Positions 52,954 through 61,062 of a stretch of DNA of 64,000 bases are shown here, in pieces. How positions within the stretch are numbered: position 1 is the first letter of the stretch; every line of letters starts with the position of its first letter. Below the pieces are notes generated by a model that saw nothing but the letters and a program-made list of their open reading frames with translations, was not told the DNA's origin and made no database searches. The position numbers and the translations under genes were made by a program. The stretch covers positions 32,029-96,028 of the forward strand of contig JAFTKW010000020.1 of assembly GCA_017453065.1 (NCBI GenBank), written 5' to 3'. The DNA comes from Lachnospiraceae bacterium. GTDB taxonomy: Bacteria > Bacillota > Clostridia > Lachnospirales > Lachnospiraceae.

Positions 52954-53011
52954 GTTATGACGACGAGGCGAACGACGTTCGCCATGTGTTTGACAGGTGT
53001 GGGGTGAGAAA

Positions 53012-54364
53012 ATGGAAGAGTGGAAGCTTGCAGTAATACAAAGAGAAAAAAATCGTATTAGAATATATAGAAGACTGCTTGTGGCAGTTACTTTCATTTT
53101 GTTTAGTGTGATGTTCACATTGACATACATGCAGGCATACAATTGTGTGCCTAAACAGATTAGACTCATTCAAGGAGATTGGCAACAGTGGGATTTTCGC
53201 TTACCAGTGAAGGGTACTATTACCAAACTGGACGGTGCAGAAATACAGAATCAGGATTCGCTCGACAGCTTACAGGTAAGTGGTCAGCGTCCATCCAATA
53301 TCCCAGCAGATGCGATCTCTATCGATTTAAGTAAAGAAATTTCTGTGAAGGCAGATGCCATGGAAACCTACCTGATGGACCTGAAACTTTTCGGAATTAT
53401 TCCTTTTAAACAGGTGGAAATTCAGGTTATGCAGGAACAGATGGTGGTTCCTGCGGGCATTCCAATCGGAATTTATGTAAAAACAGAAGGTGTGCTGGTG
53501 GTCGGAACAGGTGACTTTGAAGGCTTAGGAGGTGTGGAATGCAATCCCTGTGAGTTTGTTCTTAAATCAGGTGACTATATTTTGGAAGTGGACGAATGTG
53601 AGATTGACTACAAGAATCAGTTAGTGGAGCGAGTGGAAGAGTCTGATGGTGAAAAAATGGATTTGACTATCCTTAGAGGCGAAGAAACACTTAAGGTCAG
53701 TGTAACTCCCCAGAAAAATCTGGAGGGGGATTACAAACTAGGGATATGGGTCCGAGACAATGCGCAGGGAGTGGGAACACTTACCTTTATAGATGAAGAA
53801 GGAAACTTTGGTGCCTTAGGTCATGGCATTAGCGATGTGGATACTGGAGAAGTGCTGAATCTTAAGAGTGGAACCCTTTATAGTACTCAAATCATAGCAC
53901 TGAAGAAGGGAAAAAGTGGAGAGCCTGGTGAAATGACAGGCATGATTGAGTATGTAGATGCCAATATTTGGGGCATCATTGATGAAAATAGTGACAAGGG
54001 AATCTATGGCGATGGAAATAAGAAATTGCTTGACCAAGTGGAGTCAAAAGCACTCCCTATCGGTTTGAAACACGAGATTGAAAAAGGAGCTGCACAGATT
54101 TTATGCAGCGTGGAGGGAGAGCCTAAATACTATGATGTAGAGATCAAGGATGTATATCTGGAGAATGCCCATGTCAACAGAGGAATATTGCTTGAAGTGA
54201 CTGATCCAGAGCTTTTGGCAGTGACAGGTGGAATTATCCAGGGCATGAGCGGTGCGCCTATCATACAGGATGGCAAAATCATTGGTGCCGTCACACACGT
54301 CCTTGTCCAGGATGCAACCAGCGGATATGGAATATTTATTGAAAACATGTTAGAGCATAATTAA
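53012..54364 (+). CDS. spoIVB: SpoIVB serine peptidase (sporulation signalling)
   Basis: 450 residues. N-terminal membrane anchor (LLVAVTFILFSVMFTLTYMQ), a PDZ domain around GDYILEVDECEIDYKNQL, and an S55 peptidase domain with H271 in GALGHGISD and S413 in GMSGAPIIQDGKIIGAVTHV. In Bacillus, forespore SpoIVB cleaves SpoIVFA to activate pro-sigma-K processing. ATG 53012 after GGGGTGAG is the start. A 19-bp sequence covering the catalytic-serine codon (54246-54264) recurs at 60950, starting a decayed second 3' end. spo0A, the usual next gene, is absent. Confidence 0.95.
   Translation: MEEWKLAVIQREKNRIRIYRRLLVAVTFILFSVMFTLTYMQAYNCVPKQIRLIQGDWQQWDFRLPVKGTITKLDGAEIQNQDSLDSLQVSGQRPSNIPADAISIDLSKEISVKADAMETYLMDLKLFGIIPFKQVEIQVMQEQMVVPAGIPIGIYVKTEGVLVVGTGDFEGLGGVECNPCEFVLKSGDYILEVDECEIDYKNQLVERVEESDGEKMDLTILRGEETLKVSVTPQKNLEGDYKLGIWVRDNAQGVGTLTFIDEEGNFGALGHGISDVDTGEVLNLKSGTLYSTQIIALKKGKSGEPGEMTGMIEYVDANIWGIIDENSDKGIYGDGNKKLLDQVESKALPIGLKHEIEKGAAQILCSVEGEPKYYDVEIKDVYLENAHVNRGILLEVTDPELLAVTGGIIQGMSGAPIIQDGKIIGAVTHVLVQDATSGYGIFIENMLEHN
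54246..54264 (+). repeat. left copy of 19-bp direct repeat bounding the island (att-like)
   Basis: TGAGCGGTGCGCCTATCAT inside spoIVB, encoding part of GMSGAPII. The identical 19 bp are at 60950-60968; homology to spoIVB starts exactly at the right copy. The two copies are 6704 bp apart. Confidence 0.7.
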
Positions 54365-54369
54365 TAAAA

Positions 54370-54420
54370 AAGCAGATTTTACAAGACTTTGCGAGCTCTT
54401 GTAGAATCTGCTTCGTTTTA
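54370..54420 (+). terminator. spoIVB terminator
   Basis: AAGCAGATTTTACAAGA (54370-54386) pairs with TCTTGTAGAATCTGCTT (54397-54413), then CGTTTTA. Confidence 0.85.
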
Positions 54421-54526
54421 TATATAAATTGATTACAGTTGATGATAATGAAAAAAGAGATTAAGAAAAATAGGGACGAGTTATGTTGGGAACAACAAGA
54501 ATTCGCCCATTTTATGGAGGAGAAAA

Positions 54527-54706
54527 ATGAATTAATTTATACCATTATCAAGTTTAAAGGATACAACAGAAATTGTGGAGATATGCGAAAGCATTGATAA
54601 GCCATTTCCTATTAAAAGAAATGGTTATGATGAATTGTATGTAATGAGTTATAAGGAGTATTTGAGAAGAAAAGCAATTATAACGTTTTTTAAAAGGACT
54701 TTTTGA
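54527..54706 (+). pseudogene. Phd/YefM-type antitoxin remnant (stop at codon 3, truncated end)
   Basis: ATG 54527 behind GGAGGAG reads M-N-stop, then stays open as FIPLSSLKDTTEIVEICESI, then KPFPIKRNGYDELYVMSYKEYL, to TGA 54704. The pattern LKDTTEI...ICES..KPF.IKRNGYDELYVMS..EYL is that of Phd/YefM antitoxins, which bind DNA and neutralise a partner toxin. The N-terminus is interrupted and the C-terminal toxin-binding part is cut short (ends FFKRTF). No RelE/Doc-like toxin gene adjoins it, although the Fic protein downstream belongs to the same superfamily as Doc. Confidence 0.65.
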
Positions 54707-54796
54707 AATAAAATACAGAAATAAGCAGTTTTATTTCAAAAACCTAATGACTTTTTGAAATAAAAGAGATATACTAAATGTAGCTATTTCAAAAAA
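54697..54796 (+). repeat. array of four half-sites upstream of fic
   Basis: GACTTTTTGAAATAAAA occurs identically at 54697-54713 and 54749-54765; the inverted form TTTTATTTCAAAAA is at 54729-54742 and a shorter inverted TATTTCAAAAA at 54785-54795. The result is two facing pairs, as expected for binding of a dimeric or tetrameric regulator. Downstream are hairpins CTGCCTG-TGTAAT-CAGGCAG (54812-54831) and TTTTGC-TTC-GCAAAA (54835-54849). Intergenic otherwise. Confidence 0.6.
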
Positions 54797-54862
54797 GAGG
54801 TGAAAAATTCTCTGCCTGTGTAATCAGGCAGGCATTTTGCTTCGCAAAACAAGGAGAATTAT

Positions 54863-56002
54863 ATGAATAGAGCAGGAATATATGTTGACAATTTAACAGG
54901 AGAGGCTACTTATCAATCTTTTAAACCAAATCCATTACCACCTATGCCGGAAATTGAAATGAATGAGGAGATTGTAAAACTTTTAGTAGATGCCAATAAA
55001 CAACTTGTAAAACTTGATACTGCATCACAGTTAATTTCTAATGCGGATTTGTTTATATCAATGTATGTTAGAAAAGAAGCATTAATTTCCTCACAAATAG
55101 AAGGCACACAGTGTACTCTTGATGATGTATTAGATCCAGAGGTGGAAGCAAATGCAAATCTTGACGTTTCAGATGTTATTAATTATGTTAAAGCAACACA
55201 GTATGCATTGAAACGTCTGGAAAGCTTACCTTTATGTTGCAGATTAATAAGAGAAATACATGAAGTATTAATGGAGAATGTTCGCGGACAGGATAAAACT
55301 CCGGGAGAATTCAGACATTCTCAAAATTGGATTGGACCTGCCAATTGCTCATTAAAGGATGCAAGATATATTCCACCGAATGTAGAGGATATGCAAGACG
55401 CCATGTCTGATTTGGAGAAATATATTAATGAGAATGCGGATTATGATCCATTGATTAGAGTTGCATTGATTCATTATCAGTTTGAAACAATACATCCGTT
55501 TTTGGACGGCAACGGAAGAATCGGAAGACTTTTGATACTCCTTTATCTGATGGAGCAGGGATTGCTTGCTAAACCGGTCATTTATATATCCTATTTTTTG
55601 AAAAAGAACCAGATAGAATATTATGATCGAATTAGTGAAGTTAGAAGAAGTGGAAACTTTGAACAATGGATAAGATTCTTTTTGGAAGCGGTGAGTAAAG
55701 CAGCATCGGATTCTTTAGAAGCAATTCGTCAGCTTTCTGCATTGCATGATACAAATATAGAAAAACTTCCAAAGACAACTCGAAGCAAAGATAATTTACG
55801 AGCAGTTTTTGATTATATTGAACAGTATCCAATTATTGATATTAAGAGAACTGCAAAGGAATTAGATATTAGTTATAATACAGCAGCTACGGCTGTGAAG
55901 AAGCTTGTGGAACTTGGGGTTTTGCAGGAAACAACCAATGCTGCGAGAAACAGGGTGTTTGCGTATGAGGAGTATTTGGGAATATTGAGGAAGGATACGT
56001 AA
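54863..56002 (+). CDS. Fic family protein, class II, with C-terminal HTH
   Basis: 379 residues. The active-site motif is HPFLDGNGRIGR (residues 211-222), complete for AMP transfer. The inhibitory helix motif S-x3-E-G is SSQIEG (76-81), N-terminal to the Fic core, so it is a self-inhibited class II enzyme. Residues about 315-370 form a winged-helix-like domain (IDIKRTAKELDISYNTAATA). Family enzymes AMPylate target proteins; the target here is unknown. AAGGAG precedes ATG 54863. The large STAND-like gene starts 17 bp after its stop, so they form an operon. Confidence 0.92.
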   Translation: MNRAGIYVDNLTGEATYQSFKPNPLPPMPEIEMNEEIVKLLVDANKQLVKLDTASQLISNADLFISMYVRKEALISSQIEGTQCTLDDVLDPEVEANANLDVSDVINYVKATQYALKRLESLPLCCRLIREIHEVLMENVRGQDKTPGEFRHSQNWIGPANCSLKDARYIPPNVEDMQDAMSDLEKYINENADYDPLIRVALIHYQFETIHPFLDGNGRIGRLLILLYLMEQGLLAKPVIYISYFLKKNQIEYYDRISEVRRSGNFEQWIRFFLEAVSKAASDSLEAIRQLSALHDTNIEKLPKTTRSKDNLRAVFDYIEQYPIIDIKRTAKELDISYNTAATAVKKLVELGVLQETTNAARNRVFAYEEYLGILRKDT

Positions 56003-56019
56003 GAAGGAGGAAAAAGATA

Positions 56020-59000
56020 ATGATACCTGAGACATCTGTTAATTGGAAAGCATTTGAATATAAGTTTTCAGACAATCCACAAAGAGCATTTGAAAATCTA
56101 ACGTATTATTTGTTTTGTAATGAATATGGACAAAAATATGGAATATCTAGATACTTTAATCAGCCACATATTGAAACAAATCCTATACATGTAGGAAATA
56201 AAATTATAGGGTTTCAGGCTAAATATTATACGGATAGTGTTGCTATGTCGAGTAAGGAAAAAGAATTAAGTGAAGCGGTAGAAGGAGCTGCAAGATCTTA
56301 TCCTGGTATTACGACACTTTATTTTTATATTAGTCGTGAGTTTTCACCAAGTTCAGAGAAAGATATAGTGAAACCGGCATATCAGACGAATATTGAAAAT
56401 ACTGCGAAAGAATTAGGTATAACAATTGAATGGAAAGGTCCTAGTAATATTGAAGCTCAGCTTATGCAAGATAAGAGACTTACTATTTGTAGAAATGTTT
56501 TTTTTCAAGTGGATTCTGCAGTACAGGAGTGTTGTGAAAGTCTAAAAAAGCATAAAGAAGATATATTTAATCATATTAGAACACAAGTATCGTACAAAGA
56601 TAAAACAATTGTTTTGGATACCAATGATATCATTATAGATAGTTTTTTGAAGTCTAATAATCAGATTTTAGTAATAGATGGTGAGGCTGGTACAGGGAAA
56701 TCGGCACTCATTAAGAAAGATTTAGTGAGTATTGATAATAATACAATCGTTCTGGCATTCAGATGTACAGATATGGATGTTTCTGACAAGAGAAATTTCT
56801 TATTGACATATGGATCGCTTGTAATAGATGAAGTGTTAAAAGTGTATGAAGAGACAGAAAACAGAATTCTATATGTTGATGCCGTTGAAAAATATTTTAT
56901 TTTAGAAAATCAGCAAACATTTGAAGATTTACTTCAAGTGTTTATTTCTGCTGGTTGGAAAATAATTCTTACCATTAGAACTGCCTATGTAGAGTCGTTT
57001 CATAATTTGATGTTAAATGGAATATGTGTACAATCATATCATGTTGATCCTATTAGTAACAAATTGCTTTATGAATTGTCTGATACATATGGATTTGTAT
57101 TGCCAAGTGATAAGAAATTGACGGATATACTTCGTATACCATTTTATCTTGGTTTATATTTGACACTTGATAATATAGAAGATGCAGAGTTATCTGCTTT
57201 AAATCGAGAAGTATTTGAGGAAAAAATATGGGATGAAATTATTCGTAACAATCGAATGCGAAAAAACAACTTACCAACAAGACGTGAGAATGCGTTAGTA
57301 TTCATAACGAAAGAAATGCTTAAAAATGAAAGCTATTCGTATATGATACAGCCCGGAGATGATCATGATGCACTTTTTGAATTGGAACAAAATGGTGTGA
57401 TAATCGAATCTGAAGATGCCAAAACGTATTACCATGGACATGATGTGTTTGAAGAACTAGTGGTAAATCATATCTTTACGGAACAATATAAAAATAATAT
57501 TCCTGTAAAAGAATTTTTTGAGCAATTTGGGACAACGTTACGCATTAGAAAGCTGTTTCGCGGATGGTTAACAGATTTTGCAAGTATAGAAGCACATCAG
57601 GATTTGGTGTTTGCAACGCTTGAATGCAAAGATGTTAATGTGATATGGAAAGACGAAATTATATTAACTATAATCAGTACGGATAAATTAAAAGATTGTT
57701 ATAATAAGCTTATGCGAAATATGGATGACAATAATTATGCATTACTAAAGAAAACGGTCTTTCTGATTAATACATGTTGTCGTGTTGCAGAACATGTAGA
57801 AGGAGCTTTGAGTAAAGGAAATATATGGCCCTTAAGATTCTCTAAACCATCAGGATATGCATGGGAGTCAATTTTTAAGTTCATTCTTGACAAGAAAGAT
57901 AAAATAAATTGGGATAAGGAATTAGTAGCAAGTGTGATTGAGATTTTGGATTCTTGGACTAAGGTTTATGTGAATCGGAAAACAGAGAATACGAGAACAA
58001 GTGGCAAGATTGCTTTGTATTTGTTTGAAAAACTGTCAGCAAGTGAAGAATTTCGATATACTATAAAAAAAGATTATATTGAAAAGCTGGAAGATGTTTT
58101 GTTGAATTCAGCTTGGATGATAAAAGATGAGCTGGGAAATATATTTCAGATTGTTATTAATGGAATAAAGGATGAGGAAGAGATTTCCTATCCTTTTGGT
58201 AGAAGAAGTAGAAAACCTGATGCACCAAAGATGTATATTGATTTAGCGGAAAAAGCGATGTCAGATGTATATCATTACGGACAAGTTCCATATGCAATGC
58301 CAGAAATGGTAATTGAGTTGATGAAAAAAATGTGGCTTAAACCAGATGGAATGCCGATATACCATAATTCTCTGGAAATGGATGGCTACTTTGGGCTTAA
58401 TGAACATTTGTCACATGATTATTACCCTGCTAGTGCATTTAAAACACCGATAGGAGGATTATTACAAGCTAATCAGCAGTTGGCGACAGATTTTATTATA
58501 TATTTTTGTAACAAAACAGGAGAAGCATATCAAAAATCGCGTTTAAATATAGATTATAGAGAATGTTTTGATATTACTATCTATGTTGGAGAGCAGACGG
58601 TGAAGCAGACAGCATCAACTCGTTTATGGCAAATGTACAGGGGAAGTCATGTGGGTTCAAATCTTCTTGTTAGTCTTTTGATGGGATTTGAGAAGTGGTT
58701 ACTTAATGTTGTAAAAAACTCTCCAACTAATGCTGTTGTGGATTACTGTCAACGTATATTAAATGAGTCAGAGAATGTAATGTTGACTGCAATTGTTGTT
58801 AGTATTGCGGAAGCATATCCAGAGAAAATGCTGGACGTTGTTTGTGAGTTGCTTAAGACTAAGGAGATTTTTCATTTAGATTCCAACCGATTTAGTTCTG
58901 AACGCACGGGAACTTTGGCACTTCTTAAAAACGACTTTTTTTCCATAGAGAGAAAAGAGAGTAATAATCTTCCGCATAGAAAAATTAGGTTAGAGGATGT

Positions 59001-60816
59001 TATTTTAAAATATCAGACAAATCAATCGGAGTTATCAGAAGAAGATTTTGCCAAACAGAGGGATAAAGTCTTTGCAGCTATTGATGAGGTAACGGTAGAT
59101 TTGGATATGTGGCAGACTGATGATAAGTATGCATATTTTAGAATGGATTTACGGCGCTATAAGGAAGTGGCAGATGTAAATATCGATGATGAAGGTCGTG
59201 CAGTATATATGATAGCTCCTGAGTTTACAGAAGATATGAAGGTATTGAGCAAAGAAAGTAAAGAAATCAATGATTTTCATTTTAAGTATGCAGATTTACA
59301 ATGTTGGAGTGATTATAAGTTTAATCGTAATGAGAAGTTCAAGCAATATACGAAATATTCTGATACTAATGTGATTTGTGAAGAATTAAGTATAGTATGG
59401 GAACTACTAAACAAAATAAATTCAGATGATAGCATAAATGATGATGATAAATGGTTAGCTACCCATAGATATGTATCAATAGTTTCGTATACAAGTGCGG
59501 TATTACTTAGAGATTATGTAAGGGAGTTAGAACAAAAAGATCGAGAACTATGTAAACAAATTGTTTTTAGTTTGGGCAAAATGTTTGCTAAGGCATCAAA
59601 ATATGAATTTGTTCAAGCCGGAAATGGCGTAGACGCAATCGTAGTGGGACTTCTTGTTCTAATAAGTGAAGATAATCGTCATTTAATTAGTGAAGATAAT
59701 CCGTTGTATTTGCTATTGAAATTAATTCTTATAGATTGGAGTGATGACAGTTGTATAATAAATCAGATATCGAGTAATATTTGGGAGTGTGGAAAGCAAT
59801 ATGGCTGGCAATTCCTATATGCTTTTTCCGTGGTTGCAGAACAATATAAAAAAGAAATTATAAAAAACAGAGACACTTCTATAAATGATTTTTTCAAAAA
59901 GAACAAGAAACTAATAAAGCAAGTATTAGAAAAGGAAGTAAGTACCTATACAGATATTGATTTCAAACAATTAAATATGTCCATTATGTTTGCGACCATT
60001 TTAATGATTCCATTTAAGAGTAAAGAAGCGTCATTAGTTGCGGAGTTGACGAAAGACATTGCAATGCGGCTTGCTTTTGATAATAAGGACTCTTTGCGAG
60101 AAAAATATGGGAATATTTATGGACATATATTTAATTACGTGGTGTGGTTTGCACATGTCTTATTGTATTGTGAAGAGCAAGATAGAACTATACTTATTAA
60201 TTTATTTTTAGAACGAGCAGATTTTATTAGGAATGATAATACAGAACATTTGCTCAAATGGCTTATTCAGGAACAAGAAATTCATGGTAAGGTAAATGAA
60301 TTTTGGAGTGTGTGGAAGGCTCTGAAACCACGAATGCTTGAATTGAGTCATGAAAAGGAACGATACTATTATACTGATTATAATGGACCGATAGGTAAAG
60401 ATAGAGTCATCGCAGGCTATTTATTTGCTAATGTTGAATGGCGTGAAAATGTTCATAGATGCATGTTACTTTCTGAAGAAAAAATAGAATTTTTTGATGA
60501 TTTTATTTCGAACACGGGAAGTTTTAAGGTAGTGCTTTTCGCTATAGCTAGACTACTTAATACGGTTGGAAAGGAACCATATTTTGAGAAAGGAATTGAG
60601 TGGATTTATATTTTAATTCAAAAGGATCCAGAATGTGATGCAAAGCTTTATGTGAATACATTGTATTATTTAGAAGAGTATGTTGGAAGTTTTGTTGCTT
60701 CTCATAGAAATGATTTTAGGACGGAGGTAGTTCTAGCACAGAAAACACAAGCTGTATTAGAGTATATGGTTGGTCAAGGTTCACAGATAGCTTTTTTTAT
60801 CAGAGAAGAAATTTGA
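56020..60816 (+). CDS. Avs-like antiphage STAND NTPase with N-terminal nuclease-like domain (candidate)
   Basis: 1598 residues. Residues about 18-110 resemble a PD-(D/E)xK domain of Mrr/Cap4 type: E25 in RAFENLTYYLF, E52, and Q66-x-K68 in GFQAKYY. Then a P-loop NTPase: Walker A GEAGTGKS (221-228), Walker B-like RILYVDAVE (282-290), sensor-like KIILTIR (314-320). The remaining 1100 or more residues are helical without known motifs, as in the target-sensing repeats of Avs/AVAST proteins; Avs4 has a similar size and Mrr-type effector. AT-rich relative to the flanks. AAGGAGG precedes the start. Domain calls are by eye; a restriction-like NTPase of another family is the alternative. Confidence 0.65.
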   Translation: MIPETSVNWKAFEYKFSDNPQRAFENLTYYLFCNEYGQKYGISRYFNQPHIETNPIHVGNKIIGFQAKYYTDSVAMSSKEKELSEAVEGAARSYPGITTLYFYISREFSPSSEKDIVKPAYQTNIENTAKELGITIEWKGPSNIEAQLMQDKRLTICRNVFFQVDSAVQECCESLKKHKEDIFNHIRTQVSYKDKTIVLDTNDIIIDSFLKSNNQILVIDGEAGTGKSALIKKDLVSIDNNTIVLAFRCTDMDVSDKRNFLLTYGSLVIDEVLKVYEETENRILYVDAVEKYFILENQQTFEDLLQVFISAGWKIILTIRTAYVESFHNLMLNGICVQSYHVDPISNKLLYELSDTYGFVLPSDKKLTDILRIPFYLGLYLTLDNIEDAELSALNREVFEEKIWDEIIRNNRMRKNNLPTRRENALVFITKEMLKNESYSYMIQPGDDHDALFELEQNGVIIESEDAKTYYHGHDVFEELVVNHIFTEQYKNNIPVKEFFEQFGTTLRIRKLFRGWLTDFASIEAHQDLVFATLECKDVNVIWKDEIILTIISTDKLKDCYNKLMRNMDDNNYALLKKTVFLINTCCRVAEHVEGALSKGNIWPLRFSKPSGYAWESIFKFILDKKDKINWDKELVASVIEILDSWTKVYVNRKTENTRTSGKIALYLFEKLSASEEFRYTIKKDYIEKLEDVLLNSAWMIKDELGNIFQIVINGIKDEEEISYPFGRRSRKPDAPKMYIDLAEKAMSDVYHYGQVPYAMPEMVIELMKKMWLKPDGMPIYHNSLEMDGYFGLNEHLSHDYYPASAFKTPIGGLLQANQQLATDFIIYFCNKTGEAYQKSRLNIDYRECFDITIYVGEQTVKQTASTRLWQMYRGSHVGSNLLVSLLMGFEKWLLNVVKNSPTNAVVDYCQRILNESENVMLTAIVVSIAEAYPEKMLDVVCELLKTKEIFHLDSNRFSSERTGTLALLKNDFFSIERKESNNLPHRKIRLEDVILKYQTNQSELSEEDFAKQRDKVFAAIDEVTVDLDMWQTDDKYAYFRMDLRRYKEVADVNIDDEGRAVYMIAPEFTEDMKVLSKESKEINDFHFKYADLQCWSDYKFNRNEKFKQYTKYSDTNVICEELSIVWELLNKINSDDSINDDDKWLATHRYVSIVSYTSAVLLRDYVRELEQKDRELCKQIVFSLGKMFAKASKYEFVQAGNGVDAIVVGLLVLISEDNRHLISEDNPLYLLLKLILIDWSDDSCIINQISSNIWECGKQYGWQFLYAFSVVAEQYKKEIIKNRDTSINDFFKKNKKLIKQVLEKEVSTYTDIDFKQLNMSIMFATILMIPFKSKEASLVAELTKDIAMRLAFDNKDSLREKYGNIYGHIFNYVVWFAHVLLYCEEQDRTILINLFLERADFIRNDNTEHLLKWLIQEQEIHGKVNEFWSVWKALKPRMLELSHEKERYYYTDYNGPIGKDRVIAGYLFANVEWRENVHRCMLLSEEKIEFFDDFISNTGSFKVVLFAIARLLNTVGKEPYFEKGIEWIYILIQKDPECDAKLYVNTLYYLEEYVGSFVASHRNDFRTEVVLAQKTQAVLEYMVGQGSQIAFFIREEI

Positions 60817-60837
60817 TTGGTATTTAACCAGGATTCA

Positions 60838-60890
60838 AAAACCATTACTAAATTTTGTGTTTTGCACAGATTTTAGTAATGGTTTTGCTG
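60838..60890 (+). terminator. terminator of the fic/Avs-like operon
   Basis: AAAACCATTACTAAA (60838-60852) pairs with TTTAGTAATGGTTTT (60872-60886), extended by GTG/CAC, then TTTTGCTGTTT. Confidence 0.9.
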
Positions 60891-60949
60891 TTTATACCGA
60901 AAAACAGCAAAATTTGCAGAAAAGTGTTGCTCCCTACTTGACACGTGAT

Positions 60950-61062
60950 TGAGCGGTGCGCCTATCATTCAAAATGGGAAACTGATAGGGGATGTGTTGG
61001 TGCAGGATTCCACCAGCGGATATGGAATCTTTATCGAAACTATGCTGGATGCAGCAGGGTGA
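60950..61062 (+). pseudogene. spoIVB 3'-end remnant (right boundary of island)
   Basis: From AGC 60952 the frame reads [20 protein letters not shown], then [16 protein letters not shown] and TGA. It aligns with the last 38 residues of SpoIVB (SGAPIIQDGKIIGAVTHVLV...[15 protein letters not shown]) but lacks three codons of the conserved AVTH segment. Homology starts abruptly at the 19-bp repeat (60950-60968); an in-frame TGA lies just before. Too short to function alone. Confidence 0.85.

Follow-up and report, generated by a model that had tools for sequence, protein, structure and literature searches.

Three described systems come close to the locus treated here. Avs1-4 are described as killing through DNA cutting once terminase, portal or another phage protein has been sensed (PMC12931631), Sofic as a toxic AMPylase that leads to abortive infection and has a small antitoxin gene downstream in Escherichia coli (PMC12249575), and CccR, a Fic protein with a helix-turn-helix (HTH) domain, as a repressor of its own promoter, acting through AGATAATCAT-N26-ATGATAATCT, an inverted repeat of 10 bp whose spacer measures 26 bp (PMC9755527). 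We analysed a stretch of 64,000 nucleotides of contig JAFTKW010000020.1 (hereafter the window), from a Lachnospiraceae gut bacterium, in which a fic gene is followed head to tail by a gene for a large Avs4-like protein. The two are separated by 17 nt (56003-56019) with GGAGG inside, and lie as follows.

54863..56002, forward strand: fic, encoding a class II Fic protein of 379 aa with a C-terminal winged helix at about 55775-55963
56020..60816, forward strand: avs4-like gene (4.8 kb), encoding 1598 aa with, at approximate limits, a predicted nuclease (residues 1-170), a STAND NTPase (171-560) and a C-terminal sensor (561-1598)
60838..60886, no strand assigned: inverted repeat 3' of avs4 and possible terminator, seen as a self-complementary match and not called by the terminator scan

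The reading we prefer, and hold to be reasonably probable, is that an operon under the promoter of a SoFic-like fic has a divergent Avs4-like sensor encoded in second place, that this Fic represses its own promoter, and that the two genes are separate modules on an element inserted in spoIVB. The Avs4 kind itself is already known; new here is a variant of this sensor in an operon under predicted Fic control. The original prediction, made from the DNA letters alone, had proposed a two-gene operon of a class II Fic enzyme and an Avs-like nuclease-NTPase, and both open reading frames (ORFs) do lie at its coordinates and spacing, on the forward strand.

The match to Avs4 extends over the full length of the large protein and so goes beyond what had been proposed. 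It reaches 921.3 bits with the PADLOC Avs4 model (residues 7-1598 against 4-1569 of 1570) and 1073.9 bits with the NCBIfam model NF041815 (residues 8-1598), the latter below the equivalog cut-off of 1500 bits. Its sole PDB sequence match is E. coli Avs4 (8dgf), again at full length (E=3.4e-142), with which it shares a co-linear alignment (7-1598 against 4-1586), the nuclease and NTPase residues, a similar length and recognition by both Avs4 models, whereas it differs in sequence (26-28% identity), in its separate deep clade, in its sub-equivalog score and in forming an operon with fic. The residues singled out in the original prediction, Q66, K68 and the P-loop GEAGTGKS with K227, are all present and are kept across 87 aligned Avs4-type proteins, a set that includes four fragments. 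Among the rows with a residue at the position, the nuclease residues E52 and K68 are each found in 84/84 and Q66 in 80/84 (E in 4), while for the NTPase K227 and D287 are found in 86/86 and R320 in 85/86. An AlphaFold2 model of residues 1-560, built from 42 sequences (mean predicted local distance difference test score 86.8, predicted template modelling score 0.70), places Q66 and K68 on strand 61-68, which is preceded by helix 20-35 and strand 56-58 and followed by helix 76-93 and strand 99-104; this is the order of elements expected of a PD-(D/E)XK nuclease. Pfam STAND and AAA models matched the protein only below their cut-offs, and Pfam was dropped as a source of domain calls. Given the full-length relationship to Avs4, the proposed role as an antiphage sensor still appears well founded.

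Comparison with its relatives, namely the best 80 of 152 from 84,980 species genomes together with 3 from viral contigs (83 Avs4 loci), sets the window protein apart. The nearest independent ones are those of loci L069, from a rabbit Lachnospiraceae metagenome-assembled genome (MAG), and L148, from a viral contig in which a serine recombinase gene lies immediately upstream of avs4 (59% and 57% identical, respectively). Since the window protein, L069 (1035.3 bits) and L148 (1056.7 bits) all score under 1500 bits with NF041815, we label them Avs4-like, divergent clade; L070 (2177.3) and L035 (1848.4) score above. In the midpoint-rooted tree of 83 sequences, which leaves out L068, L088, L138 and L140, the three group together in a single clade (support 1.0, stem 1.3). 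We regard the large protein, on these comparisons, as a predicted divergent Avs4-like sensor of a deep three-member clade, a second lineage of the kind. Because its C-terminal half is the region least similar to other Avs4s (median 22%), its trigger may differ from the known Avs4 trigger. Across 392 genomes of the order, the Avs4 model matched 118 at E<=0.001, but one control genome matched as well and this count was set aside; above 180 bits only G000, G249, G048 and G268 remain, the other matches being short or weak.

Two variations on the Avs4 architecture were seen in passing. At L037:757-5781 an Avs4-like STAND and C-terminal part is joined to another N-terminal domain, the Avs4 model matching only from its position 144 on, and we interpret this as an effector swap. 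In L039-L041, L043 and L044 (about 1370-1450 residues) the model matches the N-terminal nuclease region only, so the Avs4-type nuclease may also sit on other NTPases.

Class II Fic proteins carry an N-terminal inhibitory motif, (S/T)xxxE(G/N). The window Fic has both this motif (SSQIEG, residues 76-81, 55088-55105) and the Fic catalytic motif HPFLDGNGRIGR (55493-55528, catalytic His211), as had been proposed. It scores 412.5 bits with the PADLOC SoFic model, and SoFic PDB chains match it over residues 14-378 (E about 1e-42). Like SoFic, an antiphage toxin encoded by a single gene, it thus combines a full-length match with the inhibitory motif, the Fic motif and the C-terminal domain, and we consider it a SoFic-like class II Fic with a predicted C-terminal winged helix. 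It differs in scoring far under the NCBIfam SoFic cut-off (208.9 against 550 bits, an equivalog threshold), and in the gene directly 3' of it, which is avs4 and not a small antitoxin gene such as AS1 (PMC12249575).

Immediately upstream of fic, an 11-bp sequence recurs around a promoter-like site.

54700..54710, forward strand: predicted operator half-site 1, TTTTTGAAATA, in inverted repeat
54732..54742, reverse strand: predicted operator half-site 2, TTTTTGAAATA, in inverted repeat
54747..54775, forward strand: promoter-like site ATGACT-17-TATACT between the operators (consensus scan, 9/12)
54752..54762, forward strand: predicted operator half-site 3, TTTTTGAAATA, in inverted repeat
54785..54795, reverse strand: predicted operator half-site 4, TTTTTGAAATA, in inverted repeat
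54811..54832, forward strand: terminator-like hairpin in the leader of fic, 3' of the predicted promoter and 5' of the start codon; the stem is also present upstream of the G462 fic, and the hairpin is possibly an attenuator

The four exact copies alternate in orientation between 54700 and 54795 and occur nowhere else in the 64 kb; they form two inverted repeats whose 11-bp arms are 21 and 22 nt apart. Fic homologues encoded without avs4 also have upstream repeat arrays, of other sequences. We sorted 16 homologues by their winged-helix segment and then tallied motif copies over the 180 nt that precede the start of each gene, where the background is 0-0.34 per 180 nt. All ten N-type helices (SYNT, SFNT, TFNT, AYNT, SYNA) come with 2-5 TGAAAT and no TCAAAAT, all five SFST helices with 2-4 TCAAAAT and 0-1 TGAAAT, and the single SRNA helix with five CTCACAAA. 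The operator sequence therefore changes along with the Fic recognition helix across the 16 homologues. A blind test for repeated 9-mers, from which partial loci and L253, whose start was not located, were excluded, gave values of at most 5 in 100 shuffles in 11 of the 16 promoters.

Fic autorepression has a precedent, since CccR represses its own promoter through an inverted repeat. Both CccR (PDB 7XUX) and the window protein combine a Fic domain with a C-terminal DNA-binding domain, and both have inverted repeats at their own -35/-10 region. The match between them is distant (E=1.8e-16, window Fic residues 66-302 only), and CccR is a secreted effector for which the available part of the report describes no control of immune genes (PMC9755527). 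With a C-terminal HTH and an inverted-repeat operator in its own promoter, the window Fic is probably an autorepressor of that promoter and hence of the operon. The original prediction had also suggested that Fic may modify or regulate the sensor: transcriptional regulation finds support in the operator array and its co-variation with the recognition helix, while the pairing is not conserved outside one element, which by that prediction's own criterion speaks against a dedicated partnership.

In the mechanism we propose, Fic dimers would occupy the inverted repeats, and fic and avs4 would be repressed jointly. As the 17-nt gap leaves no apparent room for a promoter, avs4 would be read from the fic-promoter transcript, and joint repression would keep the dose of a lethal nuclease low. 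Upon infection, a phage protein would bind the C-terminal part, and the Avs4-like protein would oligomerise and cut DNA; the outcome would be abortive infection, just as with known Avs proteins. Fic would act as a second, self-contained AMPylating toxin, for which contact with the Avs4-like protein is not required. Beyond the operators and the helix fit these are steps that we infer, and an immune sensor dosed by Fic seems to us likely. The wider interest lies in how suicidal STAND sensors are kept from harming their own cell: in this operon transcription would be governed by a catalytic Fic toxin, an idea that the helix-operator code of 16 homologues makes directly testable.

Several points weigh against this reading. 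Operator binding and repression by Fic are predictions from sequence. The promoter scan as a whole performed at chance (34 sites against 33.9 in shuffles), and a separate promoter for avs4 could lie within fic. The motifs of the helix comparison were picked by eye after the upstream sequences had been read, the homologues include close kin (G651/G629/G732 and G000/G462) and are not independent, and the blind test was weak for G462, G530, G405, G201 and G077 (12, 6, 10, 17 and 62 per 100 shuffles). The two nearest independent Avs4s, L069 and L148, are encoded without fic. Finally, the near-identical avs4 of L068, a goat-caecum MAG contig, is interrupted by a single in-frame stop (codon 779 of 1596), which may reflect a decayed copy or a sequence error.

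The association of fic with avs4 was surveyed across genomes, as a check on the original prediction set beforehand, and the pairing was not conserved outside one element. A Fic-family gene lies in the flanks of 5 of the 83 Avs4 loci (L068, L073, L102, L103, L146), about once per 230 kb of flank (5 loci, 1171 kb), and directly upstream of avs4 in L068, which has the same element, and in L103, which has a different Fic type. We therefore rejected a conserved Fic-Avs4 partnership. The Fic-domain protein of L103 (8280-9830, Arenibacter) has its Fic motif near the C-terminus and is encoded 171 nt upstream of avs4. Conversely, 18 of 20 Fic-homologue loci have enough downstream DNA for a neighbour count (L249 and L252, with 142 and 203 nt, were left out), and among them avs4 follows fic in the window only. 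Homology also breaks at the gene junction: the lone G462 fic matches 54680-56002 at 93%, and for avs4 the matches with L069 and L148 set in at 56020. In the literature searched we found no publication joining Avs4 (AVAST type 4) with Fic. The two genes appear to be separate modules brought together on one element.

The junction itself is not an assembly artefact, since L068 repeats the 3' end of fic, avs4 and the right end of the element. Sequence is completely identical between window and L068 from 55982 to 56132, and since dS (synonymous divergence) is 0.58 for the last 95 fic codons against 0.042 for avs4, we infer that the fic allele was exchanged by recombination while the junction was kept. 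Contig C15 ends in a second, partial copy (L003, L175), which proved to be a near-identical contig overlap.

Two unrelated defence genes may also have been stacked by chance on a mobile element, with Fic neither controlling Avs4 nor depending on it, and avs4 having its own promoter. Lone fic homologues and fic-less Avs4s are indeed the rule, and with one Fic gene per 230 kb of Avs4 flank the adjacent Fic of L103 is about what chance predicts. The 17-nt gap in the window, however, holds a ribosome-binding site and has no apparent space for a promoter, and the exact junction is common to two host backgrounds despite differing fic alleles, so that we consider chance stacking possible, if unlikely.

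A broader version of our preferred reading, to which we attach quite low probability, would make Fic both AMPylating toxin and repressor, the master switch of an NLR-like sensor. Phage attack, self-modification or ATP state would release it from TTTTTGAAATA, and toxin and sensor would rise together; the element, lacking a recombinase, would be mobilised in trans, and the spoIVB 3' end would be a genus-wide slot for defence-type cargo.

A true two-component system, in which AMPylation by Fic would be a dedicated off or on switch of the Avs4-like protein or of its trigger, seems improbable to us. Operon order, a catalytically complete Fic with an inhibitory motif and a junction kept through the exchange of fic alleles would agree with such a switch, but L069 and L148, if functional, work without fic, and fic homologues persist without avs4. 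AMPylation of the sensor finds no support in this analysis, and the partner hypothesis stands only in a weaker form, as shared regulation. It is highly improbable that we are dealing with a functionless passenger in decay: although the adjoining Phd-like ORF is broken, L068 has its stop inside avs4 and the G030 fic exists in pieces only, the window genes are uninterrupted over 379 and 1598 codons, their dN/dS (nonsynonymous to synonymous divergence) is 0.07 for fic (against G462) and 0.26 for avs4 (against L068), and the catalytic residues are conserved.

The setting of the pair points to a small mobile element, inserted between an intact spoIVB and a displaced copy of its 3' end (span 54246-61062).

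52997..54364, forward strand: intact spoIVB (Pfam Peptidase_S55, 274 bits), whose 3' end is repeated
54527..54706, forward strand: Phd/YefM-like antitoxin remnant with a stop at the third codon, seen by frame translation
60938..60943, forward strand: TTGACA, right terminus of the element, 6 nt before the junction
60949..61062, forward strand: displaced spoIVB 3' end (remnant), 114 bp, 74.7% nucleotide identity to the intact 3' end

Among site-specific genomic islands are some in which the 3' end of the target gene is replaced. The window resembles them in the intact 3' end on the left, the displaced host 3' end on the right and a right terminus shared with other inserts; it differs in its target, a sporulation gene, and in that no recombinase was found among the insert genes scanned. 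The element would have brought its own version of the spoIVB 3' end, the stretch that starts at about 54246. With the last 46 SpoIVB residues as query, 119 of 138 genomes of the genus gave a match and 17 more than one, although two of the latter (G459, G066) look like a single spoIVB split between contigs. Where the intact copy and the remnant both lie on a single contig (nine loci), the remnant starts at the same codon throughout and shows 75-99% identity. Of 17 remnants examined, 14 (15 counting TTGACG) have TGACA a short way 5' of the junction, L206 and L212 being without it; L217 and a 39-nt fragment in L207 were left out of this count. A pattern of terminus plus spoIVB core, derived from these same remnants, has 11 exact matches in the genus, of which 10 lie at remnants, and a backward control pattern with one mismatch allowed has 5. 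L068 has the same right end followed by a different spoIVB remnant, which suggests that two hosts carry one and the same element at spoIVB. Taken together, the displaced target 3' end and the shared terminus argue for site-specific insertion in the spoIVB 3' end. Neither fic and avs4 nor the 21 ORFs scanned in six further spoIVB inserts showed a recombinase family, and an integrase carried by the insert was accordingly discarded for the ORFs scanned. We found no publication on spoIVB as an integration site or prophage site, and within the literature searched this site, used by toxin-antitoxin (TA), Cas3, AlbA_2 and Avs4-like cargo, is unreported.

The upstream neighbours of fic are spoIVB and a recN-like gene, and those downstream of avs4 an HTH-TPR gene on the opposite strand and an aminotransferase gene. 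Both fic and avs4 are AT-rich relative to flanking genes, with GC content at third codon positions of 0.27 and 0.25 against 0.39-0.42 in five of them. The antitoxin remnant at 54527..54706 resembles L208:1804-2220, itself a weak Pfam PhdYeFM match below the curated cut-off. Recurrent spoIVB inserts with the TTGACA-N6 terminus were seen in the window (54246-61062), L174, L206-L216, L218, L068 and L167, and some are under 1 kb (G068 C14, G456 C2). Their cargo includes a RelB/PIN TA pair with DUF3990 (G035), Cas3 with AlbA_2 (G026), a Phd-like gene with AAA_14 (G082), AlbA_2 (G010), transporter-like genes (G071) and, in G502, a 2395-aa protein with AlbA_2 and ATP-binding cassette (ABC) genes. This protein (L210:9590-16774, reverse strand) joins a CHC2 zinc ribbon, a Toprim and a reverse-transcriptase domain, an unusual combination.

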